Shown: positions 17,697-52,300 of the stretch, in pieces | Position numbering within the stretch: position 1 is the first letter of the stretch | Layout of the letters: each line of letters starts with the position of its first letter | Source: Streptomonospora litoralis | Lineage (GTDB): Bacteria; Actinomycetota; Actinomycetes; Streptosporangiales; Streptosporangiaceae | NCBI RefSeq assembly: GCF_004323735.1 | Contig: NZ_CP036455.1 | Coordinates: 5,141,101 to 5,205,100, forward strand | Length of the DNA: 64,000 bases | Direction of reading: 5' to 3' | Position numbers and translations under genes: made by a program | The notes under the pieces: generated by a model | Database searches by the model: none | What the model was told of the DNA's origin: nothing | The model's input: only the letters and a program-made list of their open reading frames with translations

Positions 17697-17732
17697 GAAA
17701 TCACCACATCCGGGCCTGTGTGTGGTGGTTTC
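17697..17732. repeat. dispersed palindromic core, copy 2
   Basis: GAAATCACCACA and TGTGGTGGTTTC form an inverted pair with one mismatch and a 12-nt loop, followed by CGCGCGATGGATG. This is the same core as at 6766-6824. It fills the gap between the truncated LuxR gene and the tail of the broken Wadjet region. I see nothing else in 17593-17796. Confidence 0.65.
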
Positions 17733-17796
17733 CGCGCGATGGATGGGTACGCGCGCCCGGCCGTGCCCGGTCCCGCTCCGCTGCCGCGGGTTCGGC

Positions 17797-18940
17797 TCAC
17801 TCGCGAAGACCGACCAGCGCTCTCTCGGCGGCCGCGGTGATTTCCGGATCGATCTCGGCCAGGGCGAATTCCTCGGCGATGCGTCCCGCTCTCACCCGGG
17901 TAGACGCGCACTTGTCATGCACGAGCCCGGGAAGCTCGGCAAGCGTGTCCGCCAACCCCGATTCGGCCCCGGTGAGTTCCGGAGGTACCGGCTGCTGCGG
18001 GTCGTGTAGGCCGATTAGGGATTCGAGATTGTCGAGCAGGCCGACCAACCAGTCGTCCGCGTCGAGCTTCTCCACGCTCAGGTAGCCGTTGGTTGCCAAC
18101 CAACTCCGCACGCCTCCAGCCCCTGAGGAATCCGCCCGCTCGTACAGGGTGTGCAAACCCGTTTCCCCTGTCTCCTGCACGGCCATGTGCAGTGCGATGG
18201 CGCGGTGTTCGGAGTCGTCGGTACGATCCGCCAGGTCTGCAAGCTCGGCTGCGGCCTGCCCCTGCGAACGGGCGGCGATCCAGCTCATCACCGCCTCGTC
18301 ACCCGCGAGTCCGGAGGACACCAGGGCGACCACCAGTTCGGCCGGCTCGGCGGCCAGCTCGGCGCAGCCGTAGGCGGTGAATCCCTGCGCCGTGTAGAAG
18401 TCGTACAGGCCCCGGATCCCAGCCGGGGAAGCCCGCAGGCAGTCGTCGTTCTCGGATCCCCTGAAGCGCTCGGCGGCGCCCAGTGCGACGAGAACACCGG
18501 CCATGCGCCGGACGGCCAGGCTCATGCTCTCGTCTGCGGCGACTTCGTCCTGCTCCACCGGCTCGTGTGCCCCCTCCAGACCGGCCAAGATCGAGCTCGC
18601 GTCCCGCACCAGCCGGGACAGGGGCAACCCTTCGGCGCCCTGCTGATAGAGCGCGGCGCACAGCAGATGTGTGATCTCGCCATCAGGATCGATGACAAGG
18701 TAGGCCGACCAGCCGTCCTCGCTGTCTGCGAAGCTGATGCGGTCCCAGTCTGGGAGCAGCTTGAAAACGCGCGCCCACAGGCGCTCGGGCTGACGCACCA
18801 GCGGCCGGTTCTTCTTCACCTGGACGAGGCGGCCCCCGTAAGAGCGCACCAACCCGACTTCGGCCGCGATATCGACGACGCGCTGAGCGGAAAGACCCGG
18901 CGACGCGATGTGAGCCACGCGCTCGGCCACCTCCCGGGCA
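17797..18940 (-). pseudogene. C-terminal fragment of an unrecognised protein fused to the jetC stub
   Basis: From about 18940 the coding signal changes frame and runs to the stop at 17797, giving about 380 residues. Protein-like stretches are REVAERVAHIASPGLSAQRV, VVDIAAEVGLVRSYGGRLVQ, DGWSAYLVIDPDGEITHLLC and WIAARSQGQAAAELADL. No Shine-Dalgarno and no convincing start lies at the junction; a GTG at 18930 is the first candidate. The opening part recalls the C-terminal region of plasmid pRiA4b ORF-3-like proteins, but I do not claim that. The N-terminal part of this gene appears to have been lost in the same event that removed the rest of jetC and jetD. Confidence 0.5.
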
Positions 18941-19679
18941 GGTTGCGCGCGACGTTGTCGAGCACGTCGTCGTCGAGTGGCGGCAGGGCGTCGTCGAGCA
19001 CCTTGGTGAGCTGGCCGGCCAGCACGCGGTCGCCGACCGTGGGTTTGCGCAGCTGGTAGAGCAGGTGCATGAGGTTGCGGTACTTGCCTGCCTCCTGCAC
19101 GCCGAACAGGCGGCGCATGACCTCCGCGCGGAAGGCGCCCACCTGGGCGAAGCAGGAGGCGTCGCCGACGATCTCTCTGAGCTCCTTGGCGGTGGGGCGG
19201 TGTTTCCGGTCGTGCAGGGGCAGGCGGGGCCCGACGGGGACGTCGGTGATGAAGTACTCCGCCTCGGCCTTGTTCGCAGACGCCGAAGCGGTGATCACCG
19301 CGCCGACGGTCAGCAGGTGTTCCTCGCCGGCTTCGTCCTCGCGGGTGAACTCCACCCACAGGTAGCCGAGCCGGTTGGTGCTCGCGCGGTAGCCGTCGAG
19401 CATCAGCCATTTGAGCGTGGTCTTGCCGCTTCCGGTGGAGTCGATCCGCCGCTGGTCGCCGTCGAGCAGGAACGGCAGCAGCATCTCCAGCGCCTTGGAC
19501 TTGCCCGCGCCGTTGGTGCCGCGCAGCAGCAGGCGTCCGGTGCCGAAGAGGAAGACCTGGTCGTACTGCCACACGTTGTGGATGCCGGCCCGGTTCAGCC
19601 GGAACCGGTGGGGGTGACTGAGCGGGCCGGTGGCGGTCGGCCGCGCGGGCAGTGTGCTGAGGGTGCCGGCTCCGGTCAT
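18816..19679 (-). pseudogene. jetC: truncated JetC, SMC-like ATPase of type II Wadjet
   Basis: The frame starts at ATG 19679, overlapping jetB (ATGA), and encodes 287 residues. Residues 1-246 are the N-terminal part of a TIGR02680/SMC-like ATPase: FRLNRAGIHNVWQYDQ, Walker A RGTNGAGKSKALEMLLPFLL at about 53-72, then DSTGSGKTTLKWLMLDGY and LREIVGDASCFAQVGAF. After LDDDVLDNVARN the sequence stops matching and the frame runs on through another gene in the wrong phase. Full-length JetC proteins have about 1,300 residues, with long coiled coils and a C-terminal Walker B; both are missing. The protein cannot form a complete ATPase, so the complex should be inactive. Confidence 0.85.
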
Positions 19680-21028
19680 GGGGCGTCGCCTTCCGTGGCG
19701 GGTTCGGTGCGCGGGCGCTTGGTGGCGTGCGGTCGGTAGCGTGCGGCGGCGGCCAGCAGCACCCAGTGTTCGCCGGCGTCGTCGGCGGCGGCACTCTCGG
19801 CGCGCTGCCCGCGTGCGGCGCTCACGTCGGTGACCTGGCGGTCCGCGCCGGATTGGGCCGAATCCTGGGCGCCCGCGTCCTCCGCGGCCGCGTGCGCGGC
19901 GCGTTCGGCCTGCTCGGCCCGGGTGGGTTCGACCGGCGCCAGCAGCCGCATGTCGCACAGCAGCCTGCACACGTCGGCGCGCAGGGCCCGGATGTCGGCG
20001 ACGTAGGCTTTCGACCACGCCGAGGAGTGCTCGGCCGCGAGTTCGGACAGCAGGGTGTCGATGCGCGCGGCGGGCACCGGGACACCGATGACGAGCCGGC
20101 CGCCCGCCGCGGGGTGCCCGGCTCCGTCGGGTCGTGCGGTCTCCAGCAGCCGGCCGATGAGCAGCAGCGCCGCCTGGGCCACCGTGCCCGTTCCCGGGAA
20201 TTCGGTGTCGGTGAAGTCGTCCTGTTCGCGGACCAGGGCGATGCCCTCGGCGCGGATCTCCAGTTCGGCGCCGAGCATGTCGTGGAAGTTGACCTGTTCG
20301 CGGCGCTGGTTCCGGCGCAGCCACGCGCGTTCGTCGTCGCCGAGGTCGTCCAGGTAGACGACCGGGGTCTCGGCGATGCGCCGCCGCACCGACGTCCGCG
20401 GGCCGCCGTGGTCGGTCTGCTCCGCGGCCGCGACGAGCTCCTGGGGACTGCGGGCTCGGCCGACCGGCCCGCTGACGATGCGGCGCGCGATCTCGGTGTC
20501 GATGGTCAGCAGGGCTTCGCGCTCGTCGTCGGCCAGCAGCGCGTCGACACTGCCCTCGGTCTCGCTCAGCACGTCCCAGTCGATGAGCTTGCGCAGGGCG
20601 GCGGTGAGGTGGCGCTTCTGCGCGCCGCCGGGCTCTCCCAGGTCGATGCCGGCCTCGGTCGCCGCGGCGCGGATCTCGGCCACGAGTTCGGAGAGCAGCA
20701 TCTGCTCCGGCGCCGTGACGGTGGCCGCCAGGGCGAGCACCAGGTAGGCGTAGGCGCGCGGGGAGAAGTGCGTGCCGGTCGTCGCGCGGGTGAGCCTGCG
20801 GCCGCTCCGCGCGCCGAGCCCGGCCTTGTGCAGGCGGGCGAAGCGCCCTTCGACCACGAGGCGGTAACCGAAGAACCGCTCGAAGTCGCGCTTGAGTTCG
20901 TCGGCGTGCCGGCGGACGAGGGCGAAGCCGTCGGGATCGCCGCGGGCGGTGACCAGCGGGTTGCGCAGCAGCAGCCGCAGCGCTTCGCGGCGGTCGACCT
21001 CGGCCGCGCTGTCGGAGGGCGTACTCAC
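19676..21028 (-). CDS. jetB: Wadjet protein JetB (DUF2398/TIGR02678)
   Basis: This 450-residue protein starts at GTG 21028, overlapping the jetA stop as GTGA. It has the DUF2398 features: an N-terminal RREALRLLLRNPLVTARGDP, then GYRLVVEGRFARLHKAG, FSPRAYAYLVLALAATVTA, KLIDWDVLSETEGSVDALL and TPVVYLDDLGDDERAWLRRN. In type II Wadjet systems it is the KleB-like subunit of the MukBEF-related plasmid-restricting complex. It seems intact here. The last 70 residues are Ala/Asp-rich and variable. Because jetC is cut and jetD absent, it is probably a surviving part of a dead system or has another use. Confidence 0.85.
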   Translation of the reverse strand: MSTPSDSAAEVDRREALRLLLRNPLVTARGDPDGFALVRRHADELKRDFERFFGYRLVVEGRFARLHKAGLGARSGRRLTRATTGTHFSPRAYAYLVLALAATVTAPEQMLLSELVAEIRAAATEAGIDLGEPGGAQKRHLTAALRKLIDWDVLSETEGSVDALLADDEREALLTIDTEIARRIVSGPVGRARSPQELVAAAEQTDHGGPRTSVRRRIAETPVVYLDDLGDDERAWLRRNQRREQVNFHDMLGAELEIRAEGIALVREQDDFTDTEFPGTGTVAQAALLLIGRLLETARPDGAGHPAAGGRLVIGVPVPAARIDTLLSELAAEHSSAWSKAYVADIRALRADVCRLLCDMRLLAPVEPTRAEQAERAAHAAAEDAGAQDSAQSGADRQVTDVSAARGQRAESAAADDAGEHWVLLAAAARYRPHATKRPRTEPATEGDAP

Positions 21029-22818
21029 GTTCCGGTCTCCTCCCGCGCCTGGGTGAAGCCGGTGTTCGACGAACCGAGATGGGCGGTGAAGCCCTCCAGG
21101 GCGAGGTCGCCGTTGCGGCTGCGGATCATCGCCACCCGGCCCGGGTGCTCGCGCAGGTCCAGCGCGACCCCGAGGCCGGGGTCGTCGGTGCCGAACCGGC
21201 CGGTGCCGGAGTCGGCTGCGCGCGACTGCGCCATGGCGCGGCCGAGCAGCTCGTTGAACAGCTCGAAGGCGGCCGCGGAGAAGACGACCTCCTCTTCGCG
21301 GCCGGCGGCCGCGGCGAGCTCGGCCGCGCCGGCTTCGCGCCTGGCCTCGTGCTCGTGGGCTTCGTGCAGCAGGTCCTCGCGTGCCTGGGAGTAGTCCTCG
21401 CCTTCGCGCCGGTAGGCCCCGCGGGCCTTGCGGTCGCCCCGCTCGCGGAGGCTGACCGCGACCTCGACGGGGTCGTCCTTCCACCAGCTCGTGGCGCTGG
21501 TGGCCTGGTCGGTGTCGCCGCGGGCGCCGCCGAGGTGGCGGGCGCCGTACATCGCGAAGGCGGAGGCGATGAGGTCGTGGGCCGTTTCGTCGTCGGCGGT
21601 GTCGACCCAGCGCGCGAGTTTCAGCAGGTCGTTGCGGCGCGACAGCTCGCCGCGGGCGGAGGAGCGCAGCATGCGCTTGGCGTTGCCCAGCAGCGACTGC
21701 AGCGCCTTCATGGTGGCCAGGCGCAGTTGGCCGACGTCGCTGCCGCGCCCGGCGGAGTCGGCGAACCAGTCGCGCAGTTCGCGCCAGTCGTCGAGGCTGC
21801 GGCCGCTGCTGCGGCGGACGCGCACGTCGGCGGCGGACAGCGCGCTCAGCCCGGGCTCGGCGGCGTCGATGCGCTCCAGCAGGTCGGTTAGCAGCGGCCA
21901 GAGGGAGTCGACGGCGGCGCTGATCACCGGTGTCTGGCGGGCGACGTCCTCGGTGATGGTCTCGGCGTAGTCGAGCAGCACGTCCTTGAAGACCCGGAAC
22001 TCGGCGTCGCCCAGGTCGAAGCGGTTGAGCACCTGGCCGAGGTAGGCGTAGAAGTCGCGCACCGACTCCACGAACCGCCCGAACTGGGTGAAGATCGCGG
22101 AAACGCGCCGCAGGGCGTCCGCCCCGGCGACGCCGCCGGGTTCGTGCGCCTCGCGCGCGAGGGAGTCGAGCGCCTCGGCCACCGCGCCCAGCAGTTCGCG
22201 GCTGACCTCGCGGATGGAGTCGGCGCTGAGCAGTTCCTCGCTGTGCCGCTGGACGATCTCGCCGACCGGGGAGAGCTGGTAGCGGCCCCTGCTGCGCTGG
22301 TACTCGGTGACGGTGGCGGCCCGCACCGGGCGGGCGCTGGGCAGCAGGGCGCCCCAGTCCTTGAGCTGGTCGAGTTTGCGGGCGATGGAGTCCACTGGCA
22401 GGTCGCCGGCCGCGGACGGGGAGGACGGAGCGGCGGAACCGGCGGTCTGCTCGGCGGTGACGGTGTGGGTGTCGGTGTCGGCGGAGCGGCGCGTGCCGCT
22501 GTCGCGGGAGAGCTTCTCGGCGACCTCGTGGGCGGACATGTCGGCCATGAACGTGCCGGTGAAGACCCGCATAATGGCGATGTAGACGTCGCGGTCGGGC
22601 ACGACGAGGTAGCTGTAGGCGGTCAGCCGCTCGTACTCGGCTGCGGGAGCAGAGCCGGGTTCGGCGCCCCCGCCCGGGGACGGGGCGGGGCCGGTTTCAC
22701 CGGTCTGAGCGGAGGCGCCGGGTGCCTGCGGCTCCTCGGGAGAGCCGAGCGGGCCGGTGCCTTCCGCAGCGGCGGGAGGACCGTCCCCGGTTCCGGGGGT
22801 GCCAGGGGATCGACTCAT
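21025..22818 (-). CDS. jetA: Wadjet protein JetA (DUF2397/TIGR02677)
   Basis: This 597-residue protein starts at ATG 22818, just before a Pro/Gly-rich segment of about 75 residues, and then enters the DUF2397 core at ERLTAYSYLVVPDRDVYIAI. Further family-type stretches are LDQLKDWGALLPS, YQRSRGRYQLSPVGEIVQR, FVESVRDFYAYLGQVLNRFD and FKDVLLDYAETITEDVARQ. It is the kleisin-like subunit of type II Wadjet, which recognises and cleaves small circular plasmids with JetBCD. Length exceeds the usual roughly 500 because of the N-terminal extension. It heads the operon. The 264 bp upstream hold no gene and no obvious operator. Confidence 0.85.
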   Translation of the reverse strand: MSRSPGTPGTGDGPPAAAEGTGPLGSPEEPQAPGASAQTGETGPAPSPGGGAEPGSAPAAEYERLTAYSYLVVPDRDVYIAIMRVFTGTFMADMSAHEVAEKLSRDSGTRRSADTDTHTVTAEQTAGSAAPSSPSAAGDLPVDSIARKLDQLKDWGALLPSARPVRAATVTEYQRSRGRYQLSPVGEIVQRHSEELLSADSIREVSRELLGAVAEALDSLAREAHEPGGVAGADALRRVSAIFTQFGRFVESVRDFYAYLGQVLNRFDLGDAEFRVFKDVLLDYAETITEDVARQTPVISAAVDSLWPLLTDLLERIDAAEPGLSALSAADVRVRRSSGRSLDDWRELRDWFADSAGRGSDVGQLRLATMKALQSLLGNAKRMLRSSARGELSRRNDLLKLARWVDTADDETAHDLIASAFAMYGARHLGGARGDTDQATSATSWWKDDPVEVAVSLRERGDRKARGAYRREGEDYSQAREDLLHEAHEHEARREAGAAELAAAAGREEEVVFSAAAFELFNELLGRAMAQSRAADSGTGRFGTDDPGLGVALDLREHPGRVAMIRSRNGDLALEGFTAHLGSSNTGFTQAREETGT

Positions 22819-23082
22819 AGTTCGAAAAAGATAAGCCCTGCTGCTGACGTTTACGCGGAAACCGACGAGGTGCTGCTCCTCGGCGATGATCGGTTCTTCG
22901 GTAGGAACCCGCGGGTTCCGCGCAGACCCGGGACCGAGGTCGCTGCAGGCACCCGATGCACCGGCCGCGACCGGCTGCACCTCCCCCGTCGAACGCCCGC
23001 CGAACACGGCGGACGCCGAGGGACACACGAGCAGCGTCAGCAAGCGGGCGCACCGGACGGCGGCGGGTCCGGGCGCTAGCGT

Positions 23083-23766
23083 TCAGCTGAGGTAGTTCTC
23101 AAGCAGCGCCGGGCGCAGGCCCGCGCGGTCCGCCTGCTCGACGAATTCCCGTACATCCGCGCCGAAGTTCTCCCCGAAATGCATGAGCACTATGTCGCCC
23201 GGGCGCAACCGGTCGGCGTTCGCGAAACTCATTTCACCTTCCTTGATCTCCGCGCTCCAGTGGACGACATGGGACACGCCGCATTTCTCTGCGGCCTTGA
23301 GGGTCGTCTCCCCGTAGCTGCCGTACGGCGGCCGGAACAGTTCCGGGCGCTTCCCGAACATCCTCTTGTAGTCCTCTGCGGGTCGGCAGATCCGGCGTTT
23401 CTGCTCGGCGAGGCCGCGCCCCCGCAGATCGGAGTGGTCGATGCCGTGGGTCTCGATGCGCGCGCCCGCCTCGTCGCGGAGGCGGCGGAAGAATTCCGGG
23501 TCGTCAGCGGCGTAGTCGGCGGTCAAGAACAGCGAAGCGGGCACCTCGGCCGCCTTCAGCACCGTAAGCATGTCCGGATCGCGTACCGCACCGTCGTCGA
23601 TCGTCAAGAACACGACCGGGTCGCCGGTGGACACCCGGAAGACGACGGGCGAACCGTCCCCGGTGTCCGATCCCGACGTGTGCACCGACATTCCGGTCGA
23701 GCACGCGGCGAGCGTACAGAAAAGCGCCGTGATGACCATCACGGCCCCCGGGCGTGGAATTCTCAT
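23083..23766 (-). CDS. secreted polysaccharide deacetylase-like lipoprotein
   Basis: This 227-residue protein has an N-terminal signal ending in a lipobox (FCTLAACSTG, Cys22). The NodB homology domain follows: motif 1 FLTIDDGAV with the two Asp residues, motif 2 ETHGIDHSDL with both His residues, motif 3 RPPYGSYGE, and motif 4/5 region DIVLMHFGEN. These are the metal-binding and catalytic positions of carbohydrate esterase family 4. It probably removes acetyl groups from peptidoglycan or another cell-wall glycan on the outer face of the membrane. It is divergent from the cseA-like gene, 135 bp apart, which fits a cell-envelope neighbourhood. Confidence 0.85.
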   Translation of the reverse strand: MRIPRPGAVMVITALFCTLAACSTGMSVHTSGSDTGDGSPVVFRVSTGDPVVFLTIDDGAVRDPDMLTVLKAAEVPASLFLTADYAADDPEFFRRLRDEAGARIETHGIDHSDLRGRGLAEQKRRICRPAEDYKRMFGKRPELFRPPYGSYGETTLKAAEKCGVSHVVHWSAEIKEGEMSFANADRLRPGDIVLMHFGENFGADVREFVEQADRAGLRPALLENYLS

Positions 23767-23901
23767 GGCACCCTTTCCTCGGTTGTCTCAAACGGACACT
23801 AGGAGGCGGGTTTCTCGGAGCCACCAAATCCGTGTTGCGGTCTCCCGGAGGTATTCCGTCGGTCGTGTAACAGCGGATCGCGGGGCGGTAGCATCGCCGT
23901 T

Positions 23902-24483
23902 ATGCCGATGAAGACGAGGCTGGCCGTCGCGCTCTGCGCGGTCGCCGCAGGGCTCTGCGCGGCCGGCTGCGGCGTGGTCGATACCGGGGTCCGCGTGTCC
24001 GGTGCCGCGCCGACGCCGACTGAGCCGGCGCCCCGGACCGAAGGCGGCACCCCCGCGCGCTCCGTGGACGCGGTCGAGGTGCTGCGCGAGGACCCGGGCG
24101 TGAGCGACGCCGTCAAGGAGGCGGTGGTGCGGCCGTGCCCAGAGGGCTACGGCGAGGGCTGGTACCCGGTGTACGTGCGCTACTACGAGCTTCCCGACAC
24201 CGGCATCCCGGTCGTCCTGATCAACGTGCAGGGGTGCGCGGGGAGCGTCGCCTGTACAGGTGCCCTGGGCGGCTATGTCTACCGGCTGTGGGAGGGCCGC
24301 GCCGAGCGGATCTACACGACGACAGGCGGCGCGTCCGAGGTCGCATGGCACGAAGGCGGCCCCGTGGTCGAACGCGCGGACTGGGCGGCGGGCTCGGGGG
24401 CGGGCGGCACGTGCCCCGAGAGCCTCACCCGCACGAGGCTGGAATGGGACGGTGCCGGGCTGACCGAGCAGAGGGGAGAGTGA
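23902..24483 (+). CDS. cseA: CseA-like lipoprotein of an envelope-stress system
   Basis: This 193-residue lipoprotein has a lipobox in GLCAAGCGVV (Cys29) and then the CseA pattern: DTGVRVSGAAPTPTEPAP, VEVLREDPGVSDAVKEAVVR and a beta-rich domain with paired cysteines (VQGCAGSVACTG, AGGTCPES). In Streptomyces CseA is an extracytoplasmic lipoprotein that damps the CseB/CseC response. Gene order cseA-cseB-cseC is kept here, 7 bp separating it from the regulator gene. The sigma factor gene sigE, which normally heads that operon, is absent from this window. Assignment rests on gene order plus modest sequence similarity. Confidence 0.7.
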   Translation: MPMKTRLAVALCAVAAGLCAAGCGVVDTGVRVSGAAPTPTEPAPRTEGGTPARSVDAVEVLREDPGVSDAVKEAVVRPCPEGYGEGWYPVYVRYYELPDTGIPVVLINVQGCAGSVACTGALGGYVYRLWEGRAERIYTTTGGASEVAWHEGGPVVERADWAAGSGAGGTCPESLTRTRLEWDGAGLTEQRGE

Positions 24484-41041: not shown

Positions 41042-41156
41042 CCGGCTTCCCGCATGACGCCGGTCTTTTGGCCACCGATACGGGAGGCGGCTTGGCGCCG
41101 GTAGACACGAGACCAGCGGAGCCGCGCGGGCGGGAACGCGGCTGCCCTCGTCTAAC

Positions 41157-41300
41157 GCGCGGAAATCACCGAATCCGCAGGGCCCAACCCCCGCCCTCCT
41201 CGCCGCCGCTCCCCCATCACGACCACCCGCCACCCAGCAGACCAACAAGGTCGCAACAACGCCGCACAGCAAACCGGCGTTCTTAATCACGGCTTAGCGG
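41157..41300. repeat. dispersed repeat, copy at the 3' end of the DinB gene
   Basis: It begins with the core GCGCGGAAATCACC (41157-41170) in single orientation and continues into the approximately 120-bp module (CTCCTCGCCGCCGCT, then CACCCAGCAGACCAACAAGG). It finishes with CCGGCGTTCTT and ACGGCTTAG, running into the stop codon of the minus-strand DinB gene. The same ending occurs at 46620-46643. It occupies most of the gap between two convergent genes. Confidence 0.6.
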
Positions 41301-41803
41301 CGCCGGAGCAGTCCGCGGACGCAGGCGGCCTGACCGACGTGCTGCAGGTCCTCGGCGACCACGCTGACCAGCCGGGCTCCCAGCGTCACCGGGGGTTCCC
41401 AGGAGGCGTCGAGGACCTCGTCCAAGGCGGCGGGGTCGAGACCCCGCAGGTACTCGAGCGTCTGCGCGTGGGTCGCGTCGTAGTACCCGGCCAGTTTTCC
41501 GGCCGAGTCCACGCGCACGGCCGCCACCTCGTCGGGGGTGTGTCCGAACCCGGTGTCGGCCGCCGGCAGGGACAGCCCGAACGCGTCCCGCCACCCCTGG
41601 GCGAGCCACACCTGCTCCATACCTGCGGCGTCGGCGATGTGGTCGTCCTGAACGCGGGTCATGTGCCAGATCAGCCAGGCGATCGGATTGCTGCCCTCGT
41701 CCACGCGGCCGTGCAGCTCGTCGGCGGAGACGCCGTCCAGCACGTCGTGGACCACGCCGCGAACCCGGTCGAAGCCGTCTTCCAGCACCGCTGTAGCGTC
41801 CAT
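41294..41803 (-). CDS. DinB/DUF664-family protein
   Basis: This 169-residue four-helix bundle protein has the DinB-like pattern ELHGRVDEGSNPIAWLIWHM, TRVQDDHIADAAGMEQVW and a C-terminal VVAEDLQHVGQAACVRGLL. The spaced His residues (WHM, DDHIAD, LQHVG) form the usual metal triad. In actinomycetes such proteins are mycothiol-dependent transferases or related enzymes acting on unknown electrophiles in the cytoplasm. GGAGGAG lies 4 bases before the ATG. The 213-bp gap to the divergent aldo/keto reductase gene probably holds both promoters. Confidence 0.85.
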   Translation of the reverse strand: MDATAVLEDGFDRVRGVVHDVLDGVSADELHGRVDEGSNPIAWLIWHMTRVQDDHIADAAGMEQVWLAQGWRDAFGLSLPAADTGFGHTPDEVAAVRVDSAGKLAGYYDATHAQTLEYLRGLDPAALDEVLDASWEPPVTLGARLVSVVAEDLQHVGQAACVRGLLRRR

Positions 41804-42016
41804 CGTTCTCCTCCGTTCCTCTCGTGTGCGCGTCGGCCGCCGGCCCCGGCCGCGGCCGATCCGCCGACCTGCGGATTCGGCGGCGGCACCGCCCGCGACA
41901 CTTCCACTAACCAGGCGCGCCGCGGCGACGCGCACCGAGGTCCGAGGTCCGGCACCCGCGACACGAGGGAACACCGGCACCCTTCCCGCCATCGAGCGAT
42001 CACTTAGCGTAGTGGC

Positions 42017-42901
42017 ATGACCGTTCCGAACATCTCCTTGAACAACGGCGTCGAGATCCCGGCCATCGGATTCGGGGTGTTCCAGACACCGCCCGAGCAG
42101 ACCGTCGCCGCCGTCGAGACCGCCCTGTCGACCGGCTACCGCCACGTCGACACCGCCGCCGCCTACGGCAACGAACGCGAAGTCGGCGAGGCGATCCGCC
42201 GCTCCGGGCTCGACCGCTCCGACGTCTTCATCGAGACCAAGATCTGGATCAGCGACTATGGCTACGACGACACCCTGCACGCCTTCGACAAGGGCGCGGG
42301 CAAGCTCGGCACCGACCACATCGACCTGCTGATCCTCCACCAGGCCGTGCCGGGCGAGTTCGACCGCACCGTAGCGGCCTACCAGGCGCTGGAGAAGCTG
42401 CTGGCCGACGGCAGGGTGCGCGCCATCGGGGTCAGCAACTTCATGCCCGACCACCTGCGGCGGCTCATGGCCGAAACCGATGTCGTGCCCGCGGTGAACC
42501 AGATCGAGGTGCACCCCTACTTCCGCCAGTCCGATGTGCTGGCCTTCGACACCGAGCACGGCATCTGCAACCAGGCGTGGTCGCCCATCGGCGGCATCAC
42601 CTTCTACCGCGACGGCAGCAAGGGCTCCACCCTGGAGGACCCCGTCATCGGCGAGATCGCCGGAGCCCACGGCAAGACCGCCGCTCAGGTGATGCTGCGC
42701 TGGCACCTCCAGCAGAACCGGCAGGTCATCCCGAAGTCCGTGACACCCTCGCGCATCGCGGAGAACTTCGACGTCTTCGACTTCCAGCTGAGTGCCGACC
42801 AGCTCGCCGCGATCGACCGGCTCGACACCGGCGTGCGCGGCGGCCCGGCACCCGAGGACGTCACCCGGGAGAACTTCTGGCTGGACGTCCCGGAGGCCTG
42901 A
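42017..42901 (+). CDS. aldo/keto reductase
   Basis: This 294-residue AKR is of the AKR5/2,5-diketo-gluconate reductase type. The catalytic tetrad is visible as Asp45 and Tyr50 in VDTAAAYGNEREVGEAIRRS, Lys75 in FIETKIW, and His108 in LLILHQAVPG. The cofactor end has QVIPKSVTPSRIAENFDVFD, with the NADPH-binding Lys-Ser and Arg. It reduces an aldehyde or ketone with NADPH. It stands alone, converging on the MFS gene with a 60-bp gap. Confidence 0.93.
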   Translation: MTVPNISLNNGVEIPAIGFGVFQTPPEQTVAAVETALSTGYRHVDTAAAYGNEREVGEAIRRSGLDRSDVFIETKIWISDYGYDDTLHAFDKGAGKLGTDHIDLLILHQAVPGEFDRTVAAYQALEKLLADGRVRAIGVSNFMPDHLRRLMAETDVVPAVNQIEVHPYFRQSDVLAFDTEHGICNQAWSPIGGITFYRDGSKGSTLEDPVIGEIAGAHGKTAAQVMLRWHLQQNRQVIPKSVTPSRIAENFDVFDFQLSADQLAAIDRLDTGVRGGPAPEDVTRENFWLDVPEA

Positions 42902-45811: not shown

Positions 45812-45886
45812 GTACCGGCGGCGACCGCCGGCGCCGGAACCCGCCGCGTCCCGGCGCGCCCGCGGTGGGCCGCTAAAAACCGTGTT

Positions 45887-46632
45887 CAAGAAGTTATGTC
45901 GCAGGGCAGCGCGGCGATCGTGCCCGTATGACGAAATCCAGCGGCGTTCATTGGGAATTTCGCCACGATCGCCACGGACGACTCCGGGACATTGCACATA
46001 GCGGGCGCAGGGACTCAGAGGCGCCGCGCGGCCTCCGGCCGGTTCAGGCCCGGTCACAACACGGCGGCACCCAGCCGGCGAACCGGTGTCTGTATGTCCG
46101 GTATGCCGGTTCATTCGGCGTTGATCTTGCCCGTTCAGCCACGGGAAAGCGCTTTCCGTAGCTAGAAGTACTAAATCTTCGGGAAAAGCCACGCCGAGAG
46201 TGTCACTGGGGTTAGGTTCGACGCCGAATCCAGCTTCACAGACAGATTCGGCGCGGGTCCGATCACCTGCTGCGCACCCCTGGTGGCGAACGACCCGGAT
46301 CCGGGTGGATCTGCGCGCTGGGTGATCCTCAACGCCCCGGGCCGCTGCCTCGCCGCCCCGCTGGCCGCCGCCGGCGAGCACCCAACCCGGTGGGCACGGG
46401 CGCAGCCCACCGCCGTCCTCGCCGCCGCATTCCAGTCAAGTCCACCCGTCGCCCGGCAGACCATCAAGGCCGCGTAGTAGACCGGAGCCGCCTTCATCGG
46501 CCGCCGCCACCGGCGAGCACCCGATCCGACGACGGCAGGCCCCGCCCCCGCCGCCCTCGGCGCCGCTTTTCCCTAAGACCACCCATCCATCCGGCAGACG
46601 AACAAGGCCGCACAGCAGACCGGCGTTCTTGA
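45887..46632. repeat. gene-free stretch with diverged core and two tandem copies of the dispersed module
   Basis: 45887-45980 is homologous to 51738-51831: both share a CGCAGGGC segment, the block ATGACGAAATCCA and the following CGGCGTTC, with internal hairpin potential. 46310-46480 and 46490-46642 are two successive copies of the approximately 140-bp module (GCCACCGGCGAGCACCC, CCGCCGCTTTTCC and GGCAGACGAACAAGGCCGC). The second finishes with CCGGCGTTCTT and ACGGC at the 3' end of the TetR gene. Short frames here (for example 45928-46161) have no family resemblance. 45981-46309 otherwise shows nothing I recognise. Confidence 0.6.
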
Positions 46633-47247
46633 TTACGGCCTAGCCAGGCGTTCCACGGCGGCGAGGACGACGGCGCGGTCCTGCGGTTCGGTGTCCAGGG
46701 CGCGGTGGATGGTCAGGCCCTCGATCAGTGCGTCGATCAGCCGCGCCGTCGTCGGGTCGAAGTGGCGCTCCAGCGCGGCGCGGCTGCTGCGCATCCACCC
46801 GTTGGTGAGGTCGCGGTAGGCCGGGTCGCGGGCCGCGAGGGTGTAGAGCTCGTGGGTCAGGACGAGGCCGCGGCGGGTGTCGAACACGTCGTCGGTGATG
46901 ATCGCGACGACGGCCCGCTTGGCCTCCTCGGCATTGGGAGCCGCGGCCATGCGGTGCTCGAACCGTTCGACGACCGACCCGGCGAAGTGGGCGAAGGCGG
47001 CGTGCAGCAGGTCGCCCATGCCGGTGAAGTGGTAGGTCATCGAGCCCAGCGGCACATCGGCGGCCGCGGCGACGCGGCGGTGGGAGGTTCCGGCCACGCC
47101 GTGTTCGGCGATGACGTCCAGGCAGGCGCGGACGATCCGCTCGCGCCGGCCGGGGTCGTGGCGGCGCCGGCGGCCGCGGGCGGCCGCCGGCTCCTCAGCC
47201 GCCGGGCTCGCCGATGCCCGTGTCGGCTCGGATGCCGGGTCGCTCAT
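46633..47247 (-). CDS. TetR-family transcriptional repressor
   Basis: This 204-residue protein has an N-terminal Ala/Arg-rich extension of about 30 residues and then a TetR helix-turn-helix (RRERIVRACLDVIAEHGVAG, TSHRRVAAAADVPLGSMTYH) and a ligand domain (VFDTRRGLVLTHELYTLAAR, ARLIDALIEGLTIHRAL). It resembles the TetR_C_33/YdgL-like group that often pairs with MFS pumps. It lies 6 bp after the acetyltransferase gene on the same strand. The 17-bp palindrome between the acetyltransferase and MFS genes is the likely operator. The 3' end runs into a dispersed repeat copy. Confidence 0.88.
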   Translation of the reverse strand: MSDPASEPTRASASPAAEEPAAARGRRRRHDPGRRERIVRACLDVIAEHGVAGTSHRRVAAAADVPLGSMTYHFTGMGDLLHAAFAHFAGSVVERFEHRMAAAPNAEEAKRAVVAIITDDVFDTRRGLVLTHELYTLAARDPAYRDLTNGWMRSSRAALERHFDPTTARLIDALIEGLTIHRALDTEPQDRAVVLAAVERLARP

Positions 47248-47253
47248 GCCCGC

Positions 47254-47835
47254 TCAGATCTCCCGGGCGACGCGGGCGGGATTGCCCACGGCGACGACGC
47301 CGGCGGGGATGTCGCGGGTGACCACCGATCCCGCGCCGATGACGGAGTCGTCGCCGATCGTGACACCGGGGCAGAGGATGGCGCCGCCGCCGAGCCAGAC
47401 GTTGTCGCCGACGGTGATCGGTTTCGCGGCCTCCAGCTTGTCGCGGCGGGGCTGCGGCTCGATCGGATGGGTCGGGGTCAGCAGTTGCACGCTGGGGCCG
47501 ATCTGGCAGTCCGCGCCGATCGTGATCGGGGCCACGTCGAGCGCCGTGAGGTTGTGGTTGGCGAAGGTGCGCGCGCCGACGGTGATGTGGTCGCCGTAGT
47601 CCACGAACAGCGGCGGCTTGATCAGCGCGTCCTCGCCGAGGTCGCCGATCAGCTCGGCGAGCCGGGACCGGGCATCGGCATCGCCGTCCACGAACGCCCG
47701 GTAGTAGCGGTCGGCCAGCCGTACGGCGCGGCGGGCGCGAGCTTCGTTGTCCGGGTCGTCGGCGATGTGGAGATCGCCGGCGAGCATCCGCTCCCGGTTC
47801 GTGCGCGGATCACCGGCGAAGTAGTCGACACCCAT
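47254..47835 (-). CDS. maltose/galactoside O-acetyltransferase-like protein
   Basis: This 193-residue left-handed beta-helix transferase begins MGVDYFAGDPRTNRERMLAG, matching the Mac/LacA N-terminal domain. Hexapeptide repeats follow (ITIGADCQIGPSVQLLTPTH, ITVGDNVWLGGGAILCPGVT, IGDDSVIGAGSVVTRDIPAG). It transfers acetyl from acetyl-CoA to a sugar hydroxyl in the cytoplasm. The catalytic His lies in HPIEPQPR or the FANHNLTALD segment. It is probably in one operon with the TetR gene. Its ATG sits inside the left arm of the operator palindrome with no room for a ribosome site, so the mRNA is probably leaderless. Confidence 0.9.
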   Translation of the reverse strand: MGVDYFAGDPRTNRERMLAGDLHIADDPDNEARARRAVRLADRYYRAFVDGDADARSRLAELIGDLGEDALIKPPLFVDYGDHITVGARTFANHNLTALDVAPITIGADCQIGPSVQLLTPTHPIEPQPRRDKLEAAKPITVGDNVWLGGGAILCPGVTIGDDSVIGAGSVVTRDIPAGVVAVGNPARVAREI

Positions 47836-47877
47836 GCGTACGATCGTACCGAATCAATGTGTACGGTCGTACGCATG
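47833..47877. promoter_or_regulatory. palindromic operator containing both divergent start codons
   Basis: The left arm CATGCGTACGATCGTAC (47833-47849) and right arm GTACGGTCGTACGCATG (47861-47877) match as inverted repeats at 16 of 17 positions, with an 11-bp centre. The first ATG of each divergent gene is the outermost part of an arm. A TetR dimer pair bound here would block both promoters, which must overlap the centre. Confidence 0.8.
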
Positions 47878-49176
47878 TCTGTCGATGTGCACACCCGGCC
47901 CGGCCCAGCCGACCAGCGGGCCCGGGCCGCGGTCGCGGCGCTGTTCCTGACAAACGGGGCGCTGTTCGCCAACCTCCTCCCGCGATTCCCGGAGATCAAA
48001 GCCGACCTCGGCATGGAGAACGCGGTCTACGGGTTCACGGTCGCGGCGTTCCCGGCGGGCGCGATCGCCGCCGGACTGGCCGCGGCGGCGCTGATCCGCC
48101 GGTGGGGTTCGGCCCGGGCCGCTGTCGCGGGCACGCTGCTGACCGGTCTCGGCCTCTTCGCCGCGGGGCTCGCGCCGTCCGCCGCGGCGTTCGCGGCGGC
48201 GCTTCTGGTCGCGGGGGCGATGGACGCCATCACCGATGTCGCGCAGAACGCCCACGGCCTGCGCGTCCAGCGCCGCTACGGCCGCTCCATCATCAACTCC
48301 TTCCACGCGCTCTGGTCCGTCGGGGGCGTCCTGGGCGGCTCGATGGCCGCCGCTGCTATCGCCCTGGAGGTGCCGATCGGGGTCCATCTCGGCGCGTCCG
48401 CCGCGCTCTTCGCGGGCGTCTCCCTCGTCGCGCTGCGGTTCTGCCTGCCCGGCCGCGACGACGAACCCGCAACCGCGGCGGAGCCGGGCACCGACGCGCG
48501 CCCCGCGCCGCCGCGCCTCTCGCGAGCGCGGATCGTGTTCGTTGTCACCGCCCTGGTCGTGATCGCGATGGCGGGCACGATCGTGGAGGACGCGGGCAAC
48601 TCCTGGGCGACGCTCTACCTGTCGGACTCCCTCCAGGCGCCCGCCGCGCTGGCGGCGACGGGTTACATCGCCCTCGTCGGCGCGCAGTTCGTCGGCAGGC
48701 TCCTCGGCGACCGCGCCGTGGACCGGTTCGGCCAGCGCACGGTCGCGCGCACCGGCGGCCTGATCGTCGCGGTGGGCATGGGCCTGGCCCTGGCGCTGCC
48801 GAACGTCGCCGGCACGATCGCCGGCTTCGCCGCCGCCGGCTTCGGCGTGGCCACCCTGGTCCCCGCCGCGATGCACGAGGCCGACGAACTGCCCGGCCTG
48901 CGTCCGGGAACGGGATTGACGATCGTCTCCTGGCTCATGCGCCTGGGCTTCCTGCTGTCCCCACCCGTCGTCGGCCTGGTCTCCGACGCCGCCGGACTCC
49001 GCGCCGGCCTCCTCATAGCCCGATCGCCGGCGCCCTCGTCGTCACCCTCGCCGGCGTCCTCCACCCGAGGCGAGCCCGAGAGGTCGGGAGGGCCGACACG
49101 TGAGCCGTGGAGGGCGCCGACCGCAGGCGTGACGATCGCGGCGAGCGGCGGTGGTCGTCGGTGCCGTGGTCGCTGA
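47875..49176 (+). CDS. MFS transporter with apparent frameshift near the C-terminus
   Basis: This 433-residue protein has about 11 membrane segments and then a frame change. It starts at ATG 47875 inside the operator, so translation is probably leaderless. Motifs such as ALIRRWGSARAAVAGTLLTG, MDAITDVAQNAHGLRVQRRY and GDRAVDRFGQRTVARTGGL place it with YbjJ-like MFS proteins. After SDAAGLRAGLLI (about 49015) the natural ending PIAGALVVTLAGVLHPRRA is found in another frame, ending at 49103. The present frame instead runs through Ser/Pro- and Arg-rich text to 49176. A one- or two-base indel, real or from sequencing, explains it. The lost segment is the last helix. Confidence 0.8.
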   Translation: MSVDVHTRPGPADQRARAAVAALFLTNGALFANLLPRFPEIKADLGMENAVYGFTVAAFPAGAIAAGLAAAALIRRWGSARAAVAGTLLTGLGLFAAGLAPSAAAFAAALLVAGAMDAITDVAQNAHGLRVQRRYGRSIINSFHALWSVGGVLGGSMAAAAIALEVPIGVHLGASAALFAGVSLVALRFCLPGRDDEPATAAEPGTDARPAPPRLSRARIVFVVTALVVIAMAGTIVEDAGNSWATLYLSDSLQAPAALAATGYIALVGAQFVGRLLGDRAVDRFGQRTVARTGGLIVAVGMGLALALPNVAGTIAGFAAAGFGVATLVPAAMHEADELPGLRPGTGLTIVSWLMRLGFLLSPPVVGLVSDAAGLRAGLLIARSPAPSSSPSPASSTRGEPERSGGPTREPWRAPTAGVTIAASGGGRRCRGR

Positions 49177-49195
49177 TGGGCCGATGGTCGGCAGA

Positions 49196-49816
49196 TCAGG
49201 GGCCGGCGTGCGGGTGGCTGAGGCACTCCGTGGTGAAGTCGGCCCAGGTGATCATGGGGCCGGTGTAGGAGGCGCGGGGCTCGCGGCGGAGGCCGGTGAC
49301 GGGCTCGGGTACCGAGTCCGCGTCCATGGCACTGCTGATGCTGGTGTAGCCGCGTTCGGCGTAGCCCGGGCCGTCCTCGGCGGGTAGGCGGCCCCATTCC
49401 TTGCTCAGCGCGGCGGCGAGGAACAGTCCCCGGCCGCCGGTGCTCTCGGGGTCGGGCAGCAGGACGCGCGCGGCGGTGCGCGGCCGGTCGGAGCGGGGGC
49501 CCTGGTCGACCACTTCCAGGTGGATGACGCCGTACACCAGGCCGACCAGGCTGGCGAACACCTCGCCGTCACGCTCGCCGGACGCGGTGTGGGTTACGGC
49601 GTTGGCGAAGAACTCGCCGAAGACCAGTTCCACGGCGTCGGCCGCGTCGGGGAACGGCCGCAGCAGGGCCCGCGCCCACATCCGGGCCTCGCGGCACTGT
49701 TCGCGCAGGCCCGGGAACGTGCGTGCGGCGCTGAGGGTGTAGAGGCCGGTCGCACTGGTGCTGTCGGGCCTGTCGGGGCGGTCGCGGCCGTCGGGAGGCT
49801 CGTCGCGGGCGCCCAT
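49196..49816 (-). CDS. ATP-binding regulator of the anti-sigma kinase type, cassette 2
   Basis: This 206-residue GHKL ATPase is paralogous to that at 1949-2419: FPGLREQCREARMWARALLR, then the N-box LVFGEFFANAVTHTASGERD, LEVVDQGPRSDRPRTAARVL, the lid STGGRGLFLAAALSKEWG and the closing ASYTGPMITWADF. It carries a longer insert (YAERGYTSISSAMDADSVPE) than copy 1. The start is ATG 49816, coupled to the upstream partner by TGATG, exactly as in cassette 1. A longer open frame to 49972 is not homologous. Partner sigma or anti-sigma factors are unknown. Confidence 0.85.
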   Translation of the reverse strand: MGARDEPPDGRDRPDRPDSTSATGLYTLSAARTFPGLREQCREARMWARALLRPFPDAADAVELVFGEFFANAVTHTASGERDGEVFASLVGLVYGVIHLEVVDQGPRSDRPRTAARVLLPDPESTGGRGLFLAAALSKEWGRLPAEDGPGYAERGYTSISSAMDADSVPEPVTGLRREPRASYTGPMITWADFTTECLSHPHAGP

Positions 49817-50172
49817 CACGCCACCGCCGGAAGGTGAGCGCGCGAGCCGCGCGGGCGCGGACGGCGATCCATCAGGCTGGTCACCGCAGTTTTCGCCCCG
49901 CCGAGAAACCGGGCGGCCAGATCGGGCCGATCGGCGGTCACCTGGTTCTCCTTCCCCCAGATGAACCACCACGTGCCGCCGTACTCCACGGCCAGAACCG
50001 CGACCCGTCGGCCATCACGGACGGTGTATAGGACGGGGTGATCGGTGGAGGAGTGAGCGATGAGCGCGGGAGCGCCGATGCGGTGAAGTTCGGCGGCGAG
50101 GTCGGTGAGGAGGGTGCGGCGGCGCGAACCGGGTGTAGGCGCGTACGTACCGATAGTGGTAATCGAGGACAC
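49816..50172 (-). CDS. conserved cassette partner of the XRE/ATPase module (copy 2)
   Basis: This 118-residue protein starts at GTG 50172, six bases after GGAGG. It shares with the copy at 2419-2811 the core LLTDLAAELHRIGAPALIAH, STDHPVLYTVRDGRRVAVLA and GGTWWFIWGKENQ, then a region with RPDLAARFLGG and a basic C-terminus (DRRPRPRGSRAH). Function unknown; conservation of the Trp-Trp-Phe-Ile-Trp-Gly motif in both copies suggests a ligand or protein contact surface. It is translationally coupled to the ATPase and divergent from the XRE gene. Confidence 0.78.
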   Translation of the reverse strand: MSSITTIGTYAPTPGSRRRTLLTDLAAELHRIGAPALIAHSSTDHPVLYTVRDGRRVAVLAVEYGGTWWFIWGKENQVTADRPDLAARFLGGAKTAVTSLMDRRPRPRGSRAHLPAVA

Positions 50173-50243
50173 GGTGAACCTCCAATGGATTCCCGAAATC
50201 ACTGATGACACAGGGTGTGTAGTGCCACACTCAGAGCATGGCA

Positions 50244-50285
50244 TGCAACGCGCGTTAGTGCAACGTTTCATTTAGGAACGTTGCA
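50244..50285. promoter_or_regulatory. operator array in the divergent promoter of cassette 2
   Basis: The perfect dyad TGCAACGTT-N9-AACGTTGCA (50259-50285) is preceded by another TGCAACG half with the palindrome AACGCGCGTT (50244-50256). The XRE start at 50329 is 44 bp away. The layout suggests cooperative binding by the cassette's own XRE protein. Confidence 0.6.
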
Positions 50286-50328
50286 CACAACCAGCTAGAC
50301 TGCTGCTGAAGCTGGCAAGGAGGACAAC

Positions 50329-51183
50329 GTGAGCACACCCCGCATCGAGACGTTTCGCGGTCGACAGCTCCGGAAGGAGTTGCACCGCCTGCGCGAGGAA
50401 GCGGGCTTCTCCACCGACGAGGTCGCTGAGAAGCTCGACTGGTCCAAGGCCAAGATCTCCCGCATCGAGACAGGCAAGTCGCGCGTAACGCCCAGTGATG
50501 TCCGTCTGCTCGTCGAGACATACGCGATCAAGGATGAGCGCGAGCGAGAAGCCCTTGTCACCCTCGCCCGCGAAGCAAGACGCAAGGGCTGGTGGCATAA
50601 CTATCCGGGCGTCTTCGCAAGCACCTACGTGGGTCTGGAAGCCGAGGCGACCTCACTGCGGACTTACGAGACCCAACTCGTCCCGGGCCTGATGCAGACG
50701 GAGCGGTACATGCGGGCACTGATACGGGCTGCCCATGCCGAGATGGCGGTGGACGAGACCGAGCAGCGAGTAAGCGCTCGAAAGGAACGCAAGGAGCTTC
50801 TTCGCCAAGAGGAACCGACTCGGTTGTGGGTGATCCTGGACGAAGCGGTCCTGCGTCGCCCTGTGGGAGGCCCAGAGGTCATGCGGGAGCAACTGGCTCA
50901 CCTCATCGAACTGAGCGAGCTTCCACAAGTCCACCTACAGGTCTTGCGGTTCGAGGCTGGCGCCCACGCGTCCATGGGTGTGTCCTTCACCATCTTGGAT
51001 ACGCCGTCGGCCAACAACACTGGGGTGGTCTTCGTGGAGCACCTCAGCGGGCACCTCTATTTGGATGATGAGCCCGATTACGGCCGGTATACCCTGGCGT
51101 TTGAACACCTGCGAGCGAAGGCCGGAGATCCTGACGACACCGTCGCCCTGATCGAGCGGTTGAGGAGCGATTTTCAGCAATGA
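50329..51183 (+). CDS. XRE-family regulator with DUF5753 domain (WhiJ-like), cassette 2
   Basis: This 284-residue protein starts at GTG 50329 after AAGGAGG. Its helix-turn-helix is at residues 12-65 (LRKELHRLREEAGFSTDEVA, EKLDWSKAKISRIETGKSRV). A DUF5753 domain follows, with EARRKGWWHNYPGVF, YETQLVPGLMQTERYMRAL, LWVILDEAVLRRPVGGPEVM and GAHASMGVSFTILD. Same length and order as the cassette 1 paralogue, but the recognition helix differs (AKISRIE against STVSRWE), in line with the different dyads. The DUF397 gene follows 16 bp downstream. Confidence 0.92.
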   Translation: MSTPRIETFRGRQLRKELHRLREEAGFSTDEVAEKLDWSKAKISRIETGKSRVTPSDVRLLVETYAIKDEREREALVTLAREARRKGWWHNYPGVFASTYVGLEAEATSLRTYETQLVPGLMQTERYMRALIRAAHAEMAVDETEQRVSARKERKELLRQEEPTRLWVILDEAVLRRPVGGPEVMREQLAHLIELSELPQVHLQVLRFEAGAHASMGVSFTILDTPSANNTGVVFVEHLSGHLYLDDEPDYGRYTLAFEHLRAKAGDPDDTVALIERLRSDFQQ

Positions 51184-51199
51184 CCAAGGGAGGCGCTGG

Positions 51200-51526
51200 A
51201 TGGCCGCGCTAAATCCACCTCACGAGTGGCACAAGAGTAGCTACAGCCAACCAGCGGGCGACAACTGCGTCGAGTGCGCCAGCGCAAGCTGGTCCACCTC
51301 CAGCTATAGCACCAACAGTGCCAACTGCGTCGAATGCACCAGCGCGACATGGGCGAAGTCCAGCTACAGCACGGCTCAGGGGCAAGACTGCGTCGAGTAC
51401 ACCCCTCTCCCCACCTCCATCGCCGTCCGGGACTCCAAGCACCCAGACGCAGGCCATCTCGACTTCCCCGGGTCCGGCTGGGCTGCCTTCCTCGGTGCGG
51501 TGAAGGACGCCGCCCTCGACGTCTGA
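51200..51526 (+). CDS. DUF397 protein with three repeat units, cassette 2
   Basis: This 108-residue protein is unusual in having the DUF397 N-terminal unit three times in a row: HKSSYSQPAGDNCVECASAS, then STSSYSTNSANCVECTSAT and AKSSYSTAQGQDCVEYTPL. The standard closing block follows (IAVRDSKHPDAGHLDFPGSG, WAAFLGAVKDA). Normal members have one unit and about 65 residues; cassette 1 has two. The ATG at 51200 follows the XRE stop by 16 bp with GGGAGG. It is the presumed partner of the XRE protein. The Cys pairs could bind metal or form disulfides. Confidence 0.93.
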   Translation: MAALNPPHEWHKSSYSQPAGDNCVECASASWSTSSYSTNSANCVECTSATWAKSSYSTAQGQDCVEYTPLPTSIAVRDSKHPDAGHLDFPGSGWAAFLGAVKDAALDV

Positions 51527-51547
51527 TCCCGCGCGCAGCAGAACCCG

Positions 51548-52300
51548 GCCCGCCGCGTCGGCCCCCGGCGGCCCGGGTCCGCTGGGCGGCCTTGTTGGTC
51601 TGCCGGGTGTCGGGCGGCCTGCGGAAAAGCAGCAGCGAGGACGGCAGTGGGCCGGGCCCGCGCCCACCGCACCGGGTGCCCGCCGGTGGCGCGCCCAGCG
51701 GAGGGCGGCGACGGCGTCGGGGCCGGCGAGACCCTCGCGTGTCCGTTAAGACGCAGGGCGGCGGAACGATCGTGGCGCTATGACGAAATCCACCGGCGTT
51801 CTTCGGGACTTTCACCACGACCACCGGCGGCAGATCCCGCCACTTCGGGTGCCGCCGCCCCGATGGGCTCATCGAACGCGTGGTTTTCGTCAGATAACGG
51901 CCCGGATCCGGTGATTTCCGCGCGTTGGATGCACCGACCGGACCGCGGCGGACCAGTGCCGCCCGCCACACGCGCCACCGGCGAGCACCCGGCCCGATGG
52001 GCGCGGGCCCGACCCCGCTGTCACCGTCGCCGCCGCTGTTCCGTGCAGGCAGCCCGCCTCCCGGCAGACCGCAAGACCGCCCAGCGGACCCGAGCCGCCC
52101 GCCACACGCGCCACCGGCGAGCACCGGAACCGACGACCGCAGGCCCGACCCCGCTGTCACCGTCGCCGCCGCTGTTCCGTGCAGGCAGCCCGCCTCCCGG
52201 CAGACCGCAAGACCGCCCAGCGGACCCGAGCCGCCGCCACCGCAGGGCCGGTCCCAGAAGTACCCAACGCCCTCGCCGCCGTCTCGACATCCCAGATTCG
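51548..52300. repeat. gene-free stretch packed with dispersed repeat modules
   Basis: From left: a minus-oriented module copy at 51548-51690; a segment at 51738-51831 homologous to 45887-45980; a half core GGTGATTTCCGCGC at 51910-51923; and two plus-oriented module copies with 136-bp period, whose parts 52007-52099 and 52143-52235 look identical over 93 bp. Frames across it (for example 51647-53800) translate to Arg/Pro-rich text without family resemblance, so I treat it as non-coding. Confidence 0.65.

Follow-up and report, generated by a model that had tools for sequence, protein, structure and literature searches.

In most descriptions of miniature inverted-repeat transposable elements (MITEs), a single set of ends goes with a single interior. 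The excerpts of published reports used here describe several systems that come close to the repeats of this study. The RUP elements of Streptococcus pneumoniae are non-coding and intergenic, number 108 copies, carry terminal inverted repeats (TIRs) like those of an insertion sequence (IS), and have TA as their target (PMC2229807). In Haloquadratum walsbyi, MITEs are unrelated to their IS except in the TIR, and the palindrome-rich, heterogeneous elements of this organism, PATEs included, are frequently nested (PMC3119063). TIME and TIME-COMP elements are non-autonomous and form mosaic derivatives (PMC4133298), and the GTAG and CGTC palindromes, or REPs, are high-copy and intergenic and vary in paired fashion along their stems (PMC3733652). 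Here we describe dispersed repeats that resemble these systems in the points just named, found in 64,000 nucleotides of Streptomonospora litoralis DNA (C1:5141101-5205100), a stretch that as a whole is called the window, and across the genome. For this salt-loving bacterium, 5,814,190 bases in two contigs were searched, C1 accounting for 5,724,192 of them. The repeats are of a known kind, MITEs, in an unusual form: several end types that match different transposase families surround one palindrome-rich, array-forming interior. We consider it likely, with a probability of roughly 0.8, that they are non-autonomous MITE-like elements whose end types would each have depended, in trans, on a separate transposase family for movement.

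The same excerpts also show how the known systems differ. RUP is 107 bp long and has one end type, that of IS630-Spn1, and nested modules are not reported in the part of that paper used here (PMC2229807). PATEs are tied to IS605-type elements and have near-terminal palindromes (PMC3119063), whereas the ends found here match IS5 and IS701. TIMEs carry Tn3-family ends and are usually single-copy (PMC4133298), in contrast to a high-copy interior with ends of different families. The GTAG and CGTC palindromes measure 20-40 bp and carry a GTAG or CGTC tag, the GTAG type being tied to tyrosine transposases; the word 'actinobacteria' does not appear in that text (PMC3733652). A literature search over titles and abstracts, with most subscription journals outside its scope, found no description of the present elements, in agreement with the original prediction, whose author knew of no such family, and the consulted part of the S. 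litoralis genome paper has no word beginning 'transpos' (PMC8448680).

When window positions 6500-7150 were used as a blastn query, at least 144 matches were obtained in the genome (the best 40 of 396 candidates were scored), and the best non-self match had an E of 1.4e-207. The core pattern GGAAATCACCRNRTCC, with 2 mismatches allowed, occurred at 90 genome sites compared with 7 for the reversed control. A profile library gave 26 matches at 5 places of the window, partly by construction because the library stretches include the window, and no match on 20 dinucleotide shuffles of it. The repeats are thus real and chance is excluded. The dispersed repeat of the original prediction survived comparison with shuffled sequence. 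Every stretch it had named contains what was described there, and blastn, pattern and profile matches extend beyond the window. Its overall span, 17697-52300, was too narrow, since a complete copy lies outside it at 6507-7144. An even-step sample (20 x 20 kb, 400,000 bp, 4 of the 20 segments overlapping profile-building stretches) contained 15 places with 6,949 bp of repeat, which extrapolates, with wide error, to about 215 places and 1.7% of the chromosome. From hit-enriched stretches covering 492,806 bp of the genome we obtained the set of 94 elements analyzed below, which comprises 69,892 bp of repeat.

Three TIRs were derived from the border sequences of the elements and counted genome-wide at up to 3 mismatches, with the reversed pattern as control. 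TIR-A had 28 sites versus 5 in the control, TIR-B 63 versus 0, and TIR-C 12 versus 0; none of the listed matches lies on the 90-kb contig C2, which has one core-pattern match at 2 mismatches. Matching inverted ends were present in 22 of the 94 elements (16 B/B, 2 A/A, 4 C/C). These complete elements span 226-1849 bp, which is long for MITEs. Among the others, one was mixed A/C, 33 had one recognised end, and 38 had none. CTA preceded TIR-B in 29 of 42 ends, a count to be read with the fact that type-B stretches were partly picked with a pattern containing CTA. Many type-B ends stand in a C-TA/TA-G context, and type A and C ends are often degenerate. The type-B form, C-TA-AGCC...GGCT-TA-G, is what duplication of TA within CTAG would leave. 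As an example, the MITE at 952606-953420 has the left end TAAGCCCTGTTTAAGAAG and the right end TAAGCCCTGTTTAAGAAC.

The original prediction had proposed a search for transposase-encoding relatives with the same ends, and such relatives exist for TIR-B (IS5) and TIR-A (IS701). At 1 mismatch, TIR-B was found in 5 of 200 family genomes, S. litoralis included. In one of them (G035) it forms one end of a 1,039-bp element, the other end of which has 3 mismatches, and inside lies an IS5-family transposase (NF033580, E 1e-72). In the congener G005, 6 of 13 DUF4096 loci were IS5 copies with the ends TAGGCCCTGTTTAAGAAG, one end of one copy having a mismatch; five copies are flanked by C...G and one by T...G, and this end differs by one base from the left end of the MITE at 952606. 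Exact TIR-B was found in three stretches of the contig database, one from Streptomonospora sp. PA3 (G004) and two from unrelated lineages. In PA3, elements of about 340 bp (L155, L158) combine the same TIR-B end with another interior that has its own hairpin. S. litoralis itself gave no match to PF13340 (DUF4096), which matched in four of six genus genomes and not in PA3; 5 of 14 controls of this search gave matches. The IS5 protein of G035 likewise had no match in S. litoralis, and no transposase lay between the TIRs in the 11 TIR-B-bounded S. litoralis elements that were read for an autonomous IS5 or IS701 identity. The type-B enzyme would have been lost from this lineage.

TIR-A was found at 2 mismatches in 20 of the 200 family genomes, again including S. 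litoralis; single matches are likely chance, because the reversed control matched many genomes once or twice. It bounds elements with an open frame in G170 (L237, 1,457 bp) and G116 (L231, 1,432 bp), and the L237 protein, the one of the two that was scanned, is an IS701 transposase (NF033540, E 2.4e-112). In G005, TIR-A adjoins an IS701 gene with an internal stop. Short TIR-A/TIR-A elements were also seen in other genera, of 322 bp in G138 (L223, L235) and of 274 bp in G088 (L220). The S. litoralis genome has one IS701-family open reading frame (ORF) over cut-off, at 4294815-4295876 (177.6 bits), and three weak matches of about 24 bits. For TIR-C no partner transposase was found. The end of L153 in G194, CTAGGCCGTGTTTAAGAAG followed about 30 bp on by GATGAGTGAG, resembles TIR-C and might point to where that TIR came from. 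A preference for YTAR targets is described in ISfinder for IS701 and for some IS5 groups; a literature search combining IS701 with YTAR found none. In the favoured model, an IS5-family enzyme (DUF4096/DDE_Tnp_1) would move TIR-B in trans and an IS701-family enzyme TIR-A; both would insert at CTAG-like sites, with a duplication of TA for type B and of about four bases for type A.

The positions of the elements relative to genes, predicted by a simple codon-usage method, were then compared. Predictions with more than half of their length within an element were set aside as spurious; the elements then overlap predicted genes by 254 bp in total, and the intergenic placement noted earlier was confirmed. 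Ninety elements had genes on both sides, of which 39 pairs were convergent, 43 tandem and 8 divergent, compared with 31 convergent, 139 tandem and 48 divergent among 218 element-free neighbours. Elements therefore favour the spaces between convergent genes. This bias (39/90 versus 31/218) would also be expected if the repeats were structured RNAs or bidirectional terminators, in which selection had favoured the hairpins for a role as 3'-end signals at convergent gene pairs, with mobility secondary; however, targeting of CTAG predicts the same location, and no T-run was seen by eye. CTAG is rare in this genome (0.27 per kb versus 2.46 expected from base composition), and the 97 CTAGs outside elements divide into 14 within predicted genes, 15 at stop codons and 68 at other positions. 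Rarity and a position mostly outside predicted genes would explain the intergenic location.

The original prediction had described the copies as often adjoining truncated genes, for which no example could be demonstrated among the neighbours. At 26 of 76 ends (17/42 B, 6/22 A, 3/12 C), the stop codon predicted for the neighbour falls no more than a few bases from the TIR. In eleven of these 26 cases the stop is a TAA to which the target contributes TA and the TIR, with its first base, the last A; the reverse ORF 41294-42706 of the window ends in this way. Where a CTAG holds the neighbour's stop, the TIR can regenerate it (TA + A, or TAG), so that insertion would do little harm. In a search for empty sites, the joined flanks of two type-B sites were compared with six genus genomes. 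At 4504136-4505479 the flanking genes, a convergent pair with orthologues in the relatives, fall in one 693-bp match in G005, where the 1.3-kb element is absent, and lie 225 bp apart in G001.

The elements share an interior that consists of a module of about 137 bp, a centre, and hairpins. The module may be single or repeated, with opposite orientations to the left and right of the middle, and was present in 14 of 17 type-A, 31 of 32 type-B, 7 of 8 type-C and 37 of 38 endless elements (in these tallies the A/C element is counted under both A and C). The centre was aligned in 32 stretches of more than 400 bp, query included, the others being 79-91% identical to the query. Four hairpin types were distinguished: H1, which holds the core GGAAATCACC, H2, H3, and D9. 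H2 was found in elements of every end type (7/17 A, 10/32 B, 4/8 C); H3 and D9 are alternatives (31 elements with H3 only, 20 with D9 only, 1 with both). By eye, H1, H3 and D9 have a common upstream motif like TGTCCGKTATGYCGG. The repeats are hence an assemblage with swappable ends and not the single family proposed at the outset: TIRs of three types and hairpins of four come together around common parts. The core stated for 6766-6824, 17697-17732, 41157 and 51910 is there, and what had been taken for its diverged relatives at 45928 and 51779 is hairpin D9 instead. The second module was recovered as well, at 6932-7050, 41188-41254, 46366-46611, 51583-51693 and 51948-52219. The features of the window are as follows.

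6507-7144, no strand assigned: complete MITE-like type-A element with TIR-A at both ends (exact TIRs, repeat-covered span)
6508-6526 (genome 5147608-5147626), forward: left TIR-A, TAGTAGTACTTCGTCAAGT (exact match)
7122-7140 (genome 5148222-5148240), reverse: right TIR-A (exact match)
6765-6825, no strand assigned: hairpin H1 with 24-bp perfect arms, a 13-nt loop and the core GGAAATCACC (palindrome detection)
6870-6927, no strand assigned: copy of palindrome H2 (profile/alignment)
6932-7050, forward: module copy, 76% identical to 51948-52083 (sequence comparison)
17635-17746, forward: lone H1 copy with the upstream motif TGTCGGTTATGCCGG, no TIR and no module found; its H1 hairpin, 17686-17745, is degenerate (profiles)
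41149-41300, forward: truncated type-B element with one H1 arm (41149-41176), one module (41188-41254) and the right TIR-B (profiles)
41280-41297, reverse: TIR-B that gives the TAA stop to the reverse-strand ORF 41294-42706 (TIR search)
45877-46644, forward: type-B element with D9, H3, H2 and two modules; the left TIR-B is recognised and the right end, CTTGATTACGGCCTAG, is too degenerate for the 3-mismatch TIR-B search (profiles, TIR search)
45893-45973, forward: hairpin D9 (alignment)
46119-46181, forward: degenerate hairpin H3 (profile)
46194-46251, reverse: copy of palindrome H2 (profile/alignment)
46366-46611, forward: two tandem modules, 46366-46473 and 46505-46611, the second matching over 46505-46572 in the sequence comparison (self-comparison)
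51548-52249, no strand assigned: element without recognised TIRs, with a reverse module, D9, H1 and two forward modules (profiles)
51583-51693, reverse: module (sequence comparison)
51745-51824, forward: hairpin D9; its part 51745-51820 is 82% identical to the D9 at 45893-45973 (alignment)
51870-51929, reverse: diverged hairpin H1 (profile/alignment)
51948-52219, forward: two tandem modules, 51948-52083 and 52084-52219, 93% identical (self-comparison)

Interiors may have been exchanged between end types by recombination or nested insertion, and module arrays may have grown by unequal recombination. At 3 mismatches, TIR-B does not occur within the type-A element of 6507-7144, which is thus not a type-B element nested in type A. 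A lone hairpin such as that at 17635-17746, together with mosaic arrays and high-copy intergenic palindromes, would fit PATE-like elements, or palindromes of the REP/BIME kind that depend on a tyrosine transposase (Y1, RAYT/IS200-605). However, by eye no GTAG foot was present in the alignments of the four hairpin types, 22 elements have long matching TIRs, and DDE transposase partners with such ends were found, which makes this explanation very improbable. A protein-coding interior was rejected: open frames of up to 421 aa exist inside the elements, in GC-rich DNA, and among 17 open frames of three elements nothing exceeded the Pfam cut-offs, one frame having two weak matches below them. An origin from a plasmid or phage was likewise dropped, as the centre had no match among plasmid and phage records, and the type-A element none among those of phages. 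Elsewhere in the window, a second repeat lies in ORF-bearing DNA (1965-2658 and 3902-4088 versus 49230-50016 and 51262-51511; 67-76% identical, about 47 kb apart), and probably represents two paralogous gene clusters.

Hairpin alignments were built with bit-score floors of 30 (H1), 40 (H2), 40 (H3) and 60 (D9), which kept 25, 24, 30 and 20 sequences, respectively, from 55, 59, 64 and 21 nhmmer rows (both strands counted). H2 is a palindrome without a loop and is perfect over arms of 28-31 bp in eight copies. Over its 24 copies 87.3% of cells pair, compared with at most 51.6% in slid versions. Two-sided changes keep the pairing in 54 cells versus a shuffled mean of 28.9 (0 of 500 shuffles), and covariation is 0.285 versus 0.190 shuffled and at most 0.111 slid; neither the number of pairs with a two-sided change (9) nor that of further pair types (26) exceeds the shuffles. 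Consensus pairs and two-sided changes were 18 and 3 in H3, 6 and 1 in H1, and 17 and 1 in D9. The excess in H2 would again suit a selected RNA, as would the predominance of G-U in the variation of D9 and consensus energies that differ by strand (H3 -22.3 vs -13.1; H1 -4.4 vs -14.5; H2 -18.0 vs -13.5; D9 -11.5 vs -7.5). We did not build on this asymmetry, which is strongest for H3, H1 and D9, because it has no single direction and rests on structures that the folding itself selected; in mean single-sequence energy the two strands are only 1.9-3.4 kcal/mol apart, and not always with the same sign. In addition, the centre alignment folds better than column shuffles on both strands (about -3.5 and -4.4 s.d., 12 shuffles each), so that no RNA strand could be named. 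A known structured RNA was rejected, for at gathering scores no Rfam family matched the repeat stretches of the window. Its only match was a cobalamin riboswitch (RF00174, 91.5 bits, 16501-16685, reverse strand), upstream of the reverse-strand ORF 15419-16465. Taken together, we regard selection of the hairpins as RNAs or terminators as improbable, and we read the palindromes as kept at the DNA level, where arm-to-arm repair may maintain them, for instance by copying one arm from the other; selection acting on a hairpin in single-stranded DNA, as in RNA, may be an alternative.

A search with the centre gave at least 17 matches of 574-751 bp in S. litoralis, query included (17 candidates scored), and matches of no more than about 110 bp in 21 of 30 relatives, with a best E of 1.7e-7; most, not all, of the latter look like chance. 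A profile scan of 137 loci from other genomes gave 4 matches, all in one locus of Streptomonospora sp. PA3 (L104). There, a tandem module array in reverse orientation is 71% identical to an S. litoralis array over 318 bp (E 2.8e-34), and comes with a fragment of the centre (E 1.7e-5) and a forward module that matches weakly (E 0.0013); 50 shuffles gave no match. An interior restricted to a single species, which had been considered, was dropped on seeing this diverged array and fragment, and the array indicates that the interior is older than the species. Within positions 660-2040 of the locus, a PA3-type element with TIR-B-like ends is seen by eye at about 1120-1405, between array and centre fragment, an arrangement that looks like a nested insertion.

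Several observations weigh against movement by the ends. Mobility is something we infer from the sequences themselves. Only 9 of 22 TIR-A ends and 1 of 12 TIR-C ends are preceded by CTA, the copy at 6507-7144 is without a clean four-base duplication, and no TIR-A lies within 1.5 kb on either side of the S. litoralis IS701-family ORF or of the three weak matches. At 4504136-4505479 the intergenic space aligns poorly and the exact empty CTAG was not seen; at 3073123-3074302, relatives have at least 1.7 kb between the genes, so that this site is uninformative about an empty state. No recognised TIR is present in 38 of the 94 elements, and TIR-less copies near 606, 646, 699 and 1077 kb (L062, L063, L064, L075) are 95-97% identical over 0.8-1.0 kb. 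Transposition by the ends does not explain these copies; our guess is that they were homogenised by recombination. The same copies, the 38 TIR-less elements, an interior common to three end types, and the PA3 array and centre fragment with a TIR-B-like-ended element between them would all agree with an interior (module, hairpins, centre) that came first as a repeat and was spread, or made uniform, through recombination or some unknown mechanism, the TIRs being later insertions at or inside it. Yet in 22 elements, down to 226 bp, the TIRs stand at the outer borders as inverted pairs, and no TIR-B was seen at 3 mismatches within the type-A element at 6507-7144. We therefore find this order of events quite unlikely, and favour MITE-like elements moved in trans.

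Collectively, a single genome pairs one interior with ends of three kinds, two of which match transposase families and the third of which has no known partner. One may go further and see in the interior a transferable parasite of transposons, composed of modules and self-correcting palindromes and older than the species, which time and again would have taken over ends from unrelated transposase families, namely IS5, IS701 and a third one, with CTAG-like sites as their common target, and which would settle harmlessly by rebuilding stops. We put this forward as a doubtful, if possible, extension. If true, captured ends would have let the interior keep spreading as each enzyme came and went. The system opens to study the swapping of ends by miniature elements, the persistence of matching arms in large palindromes, and the way in which insertions become tolerable to a dense, GC-rich genome when their target is rare, often lies outside genes and in some cases is a stop codon.

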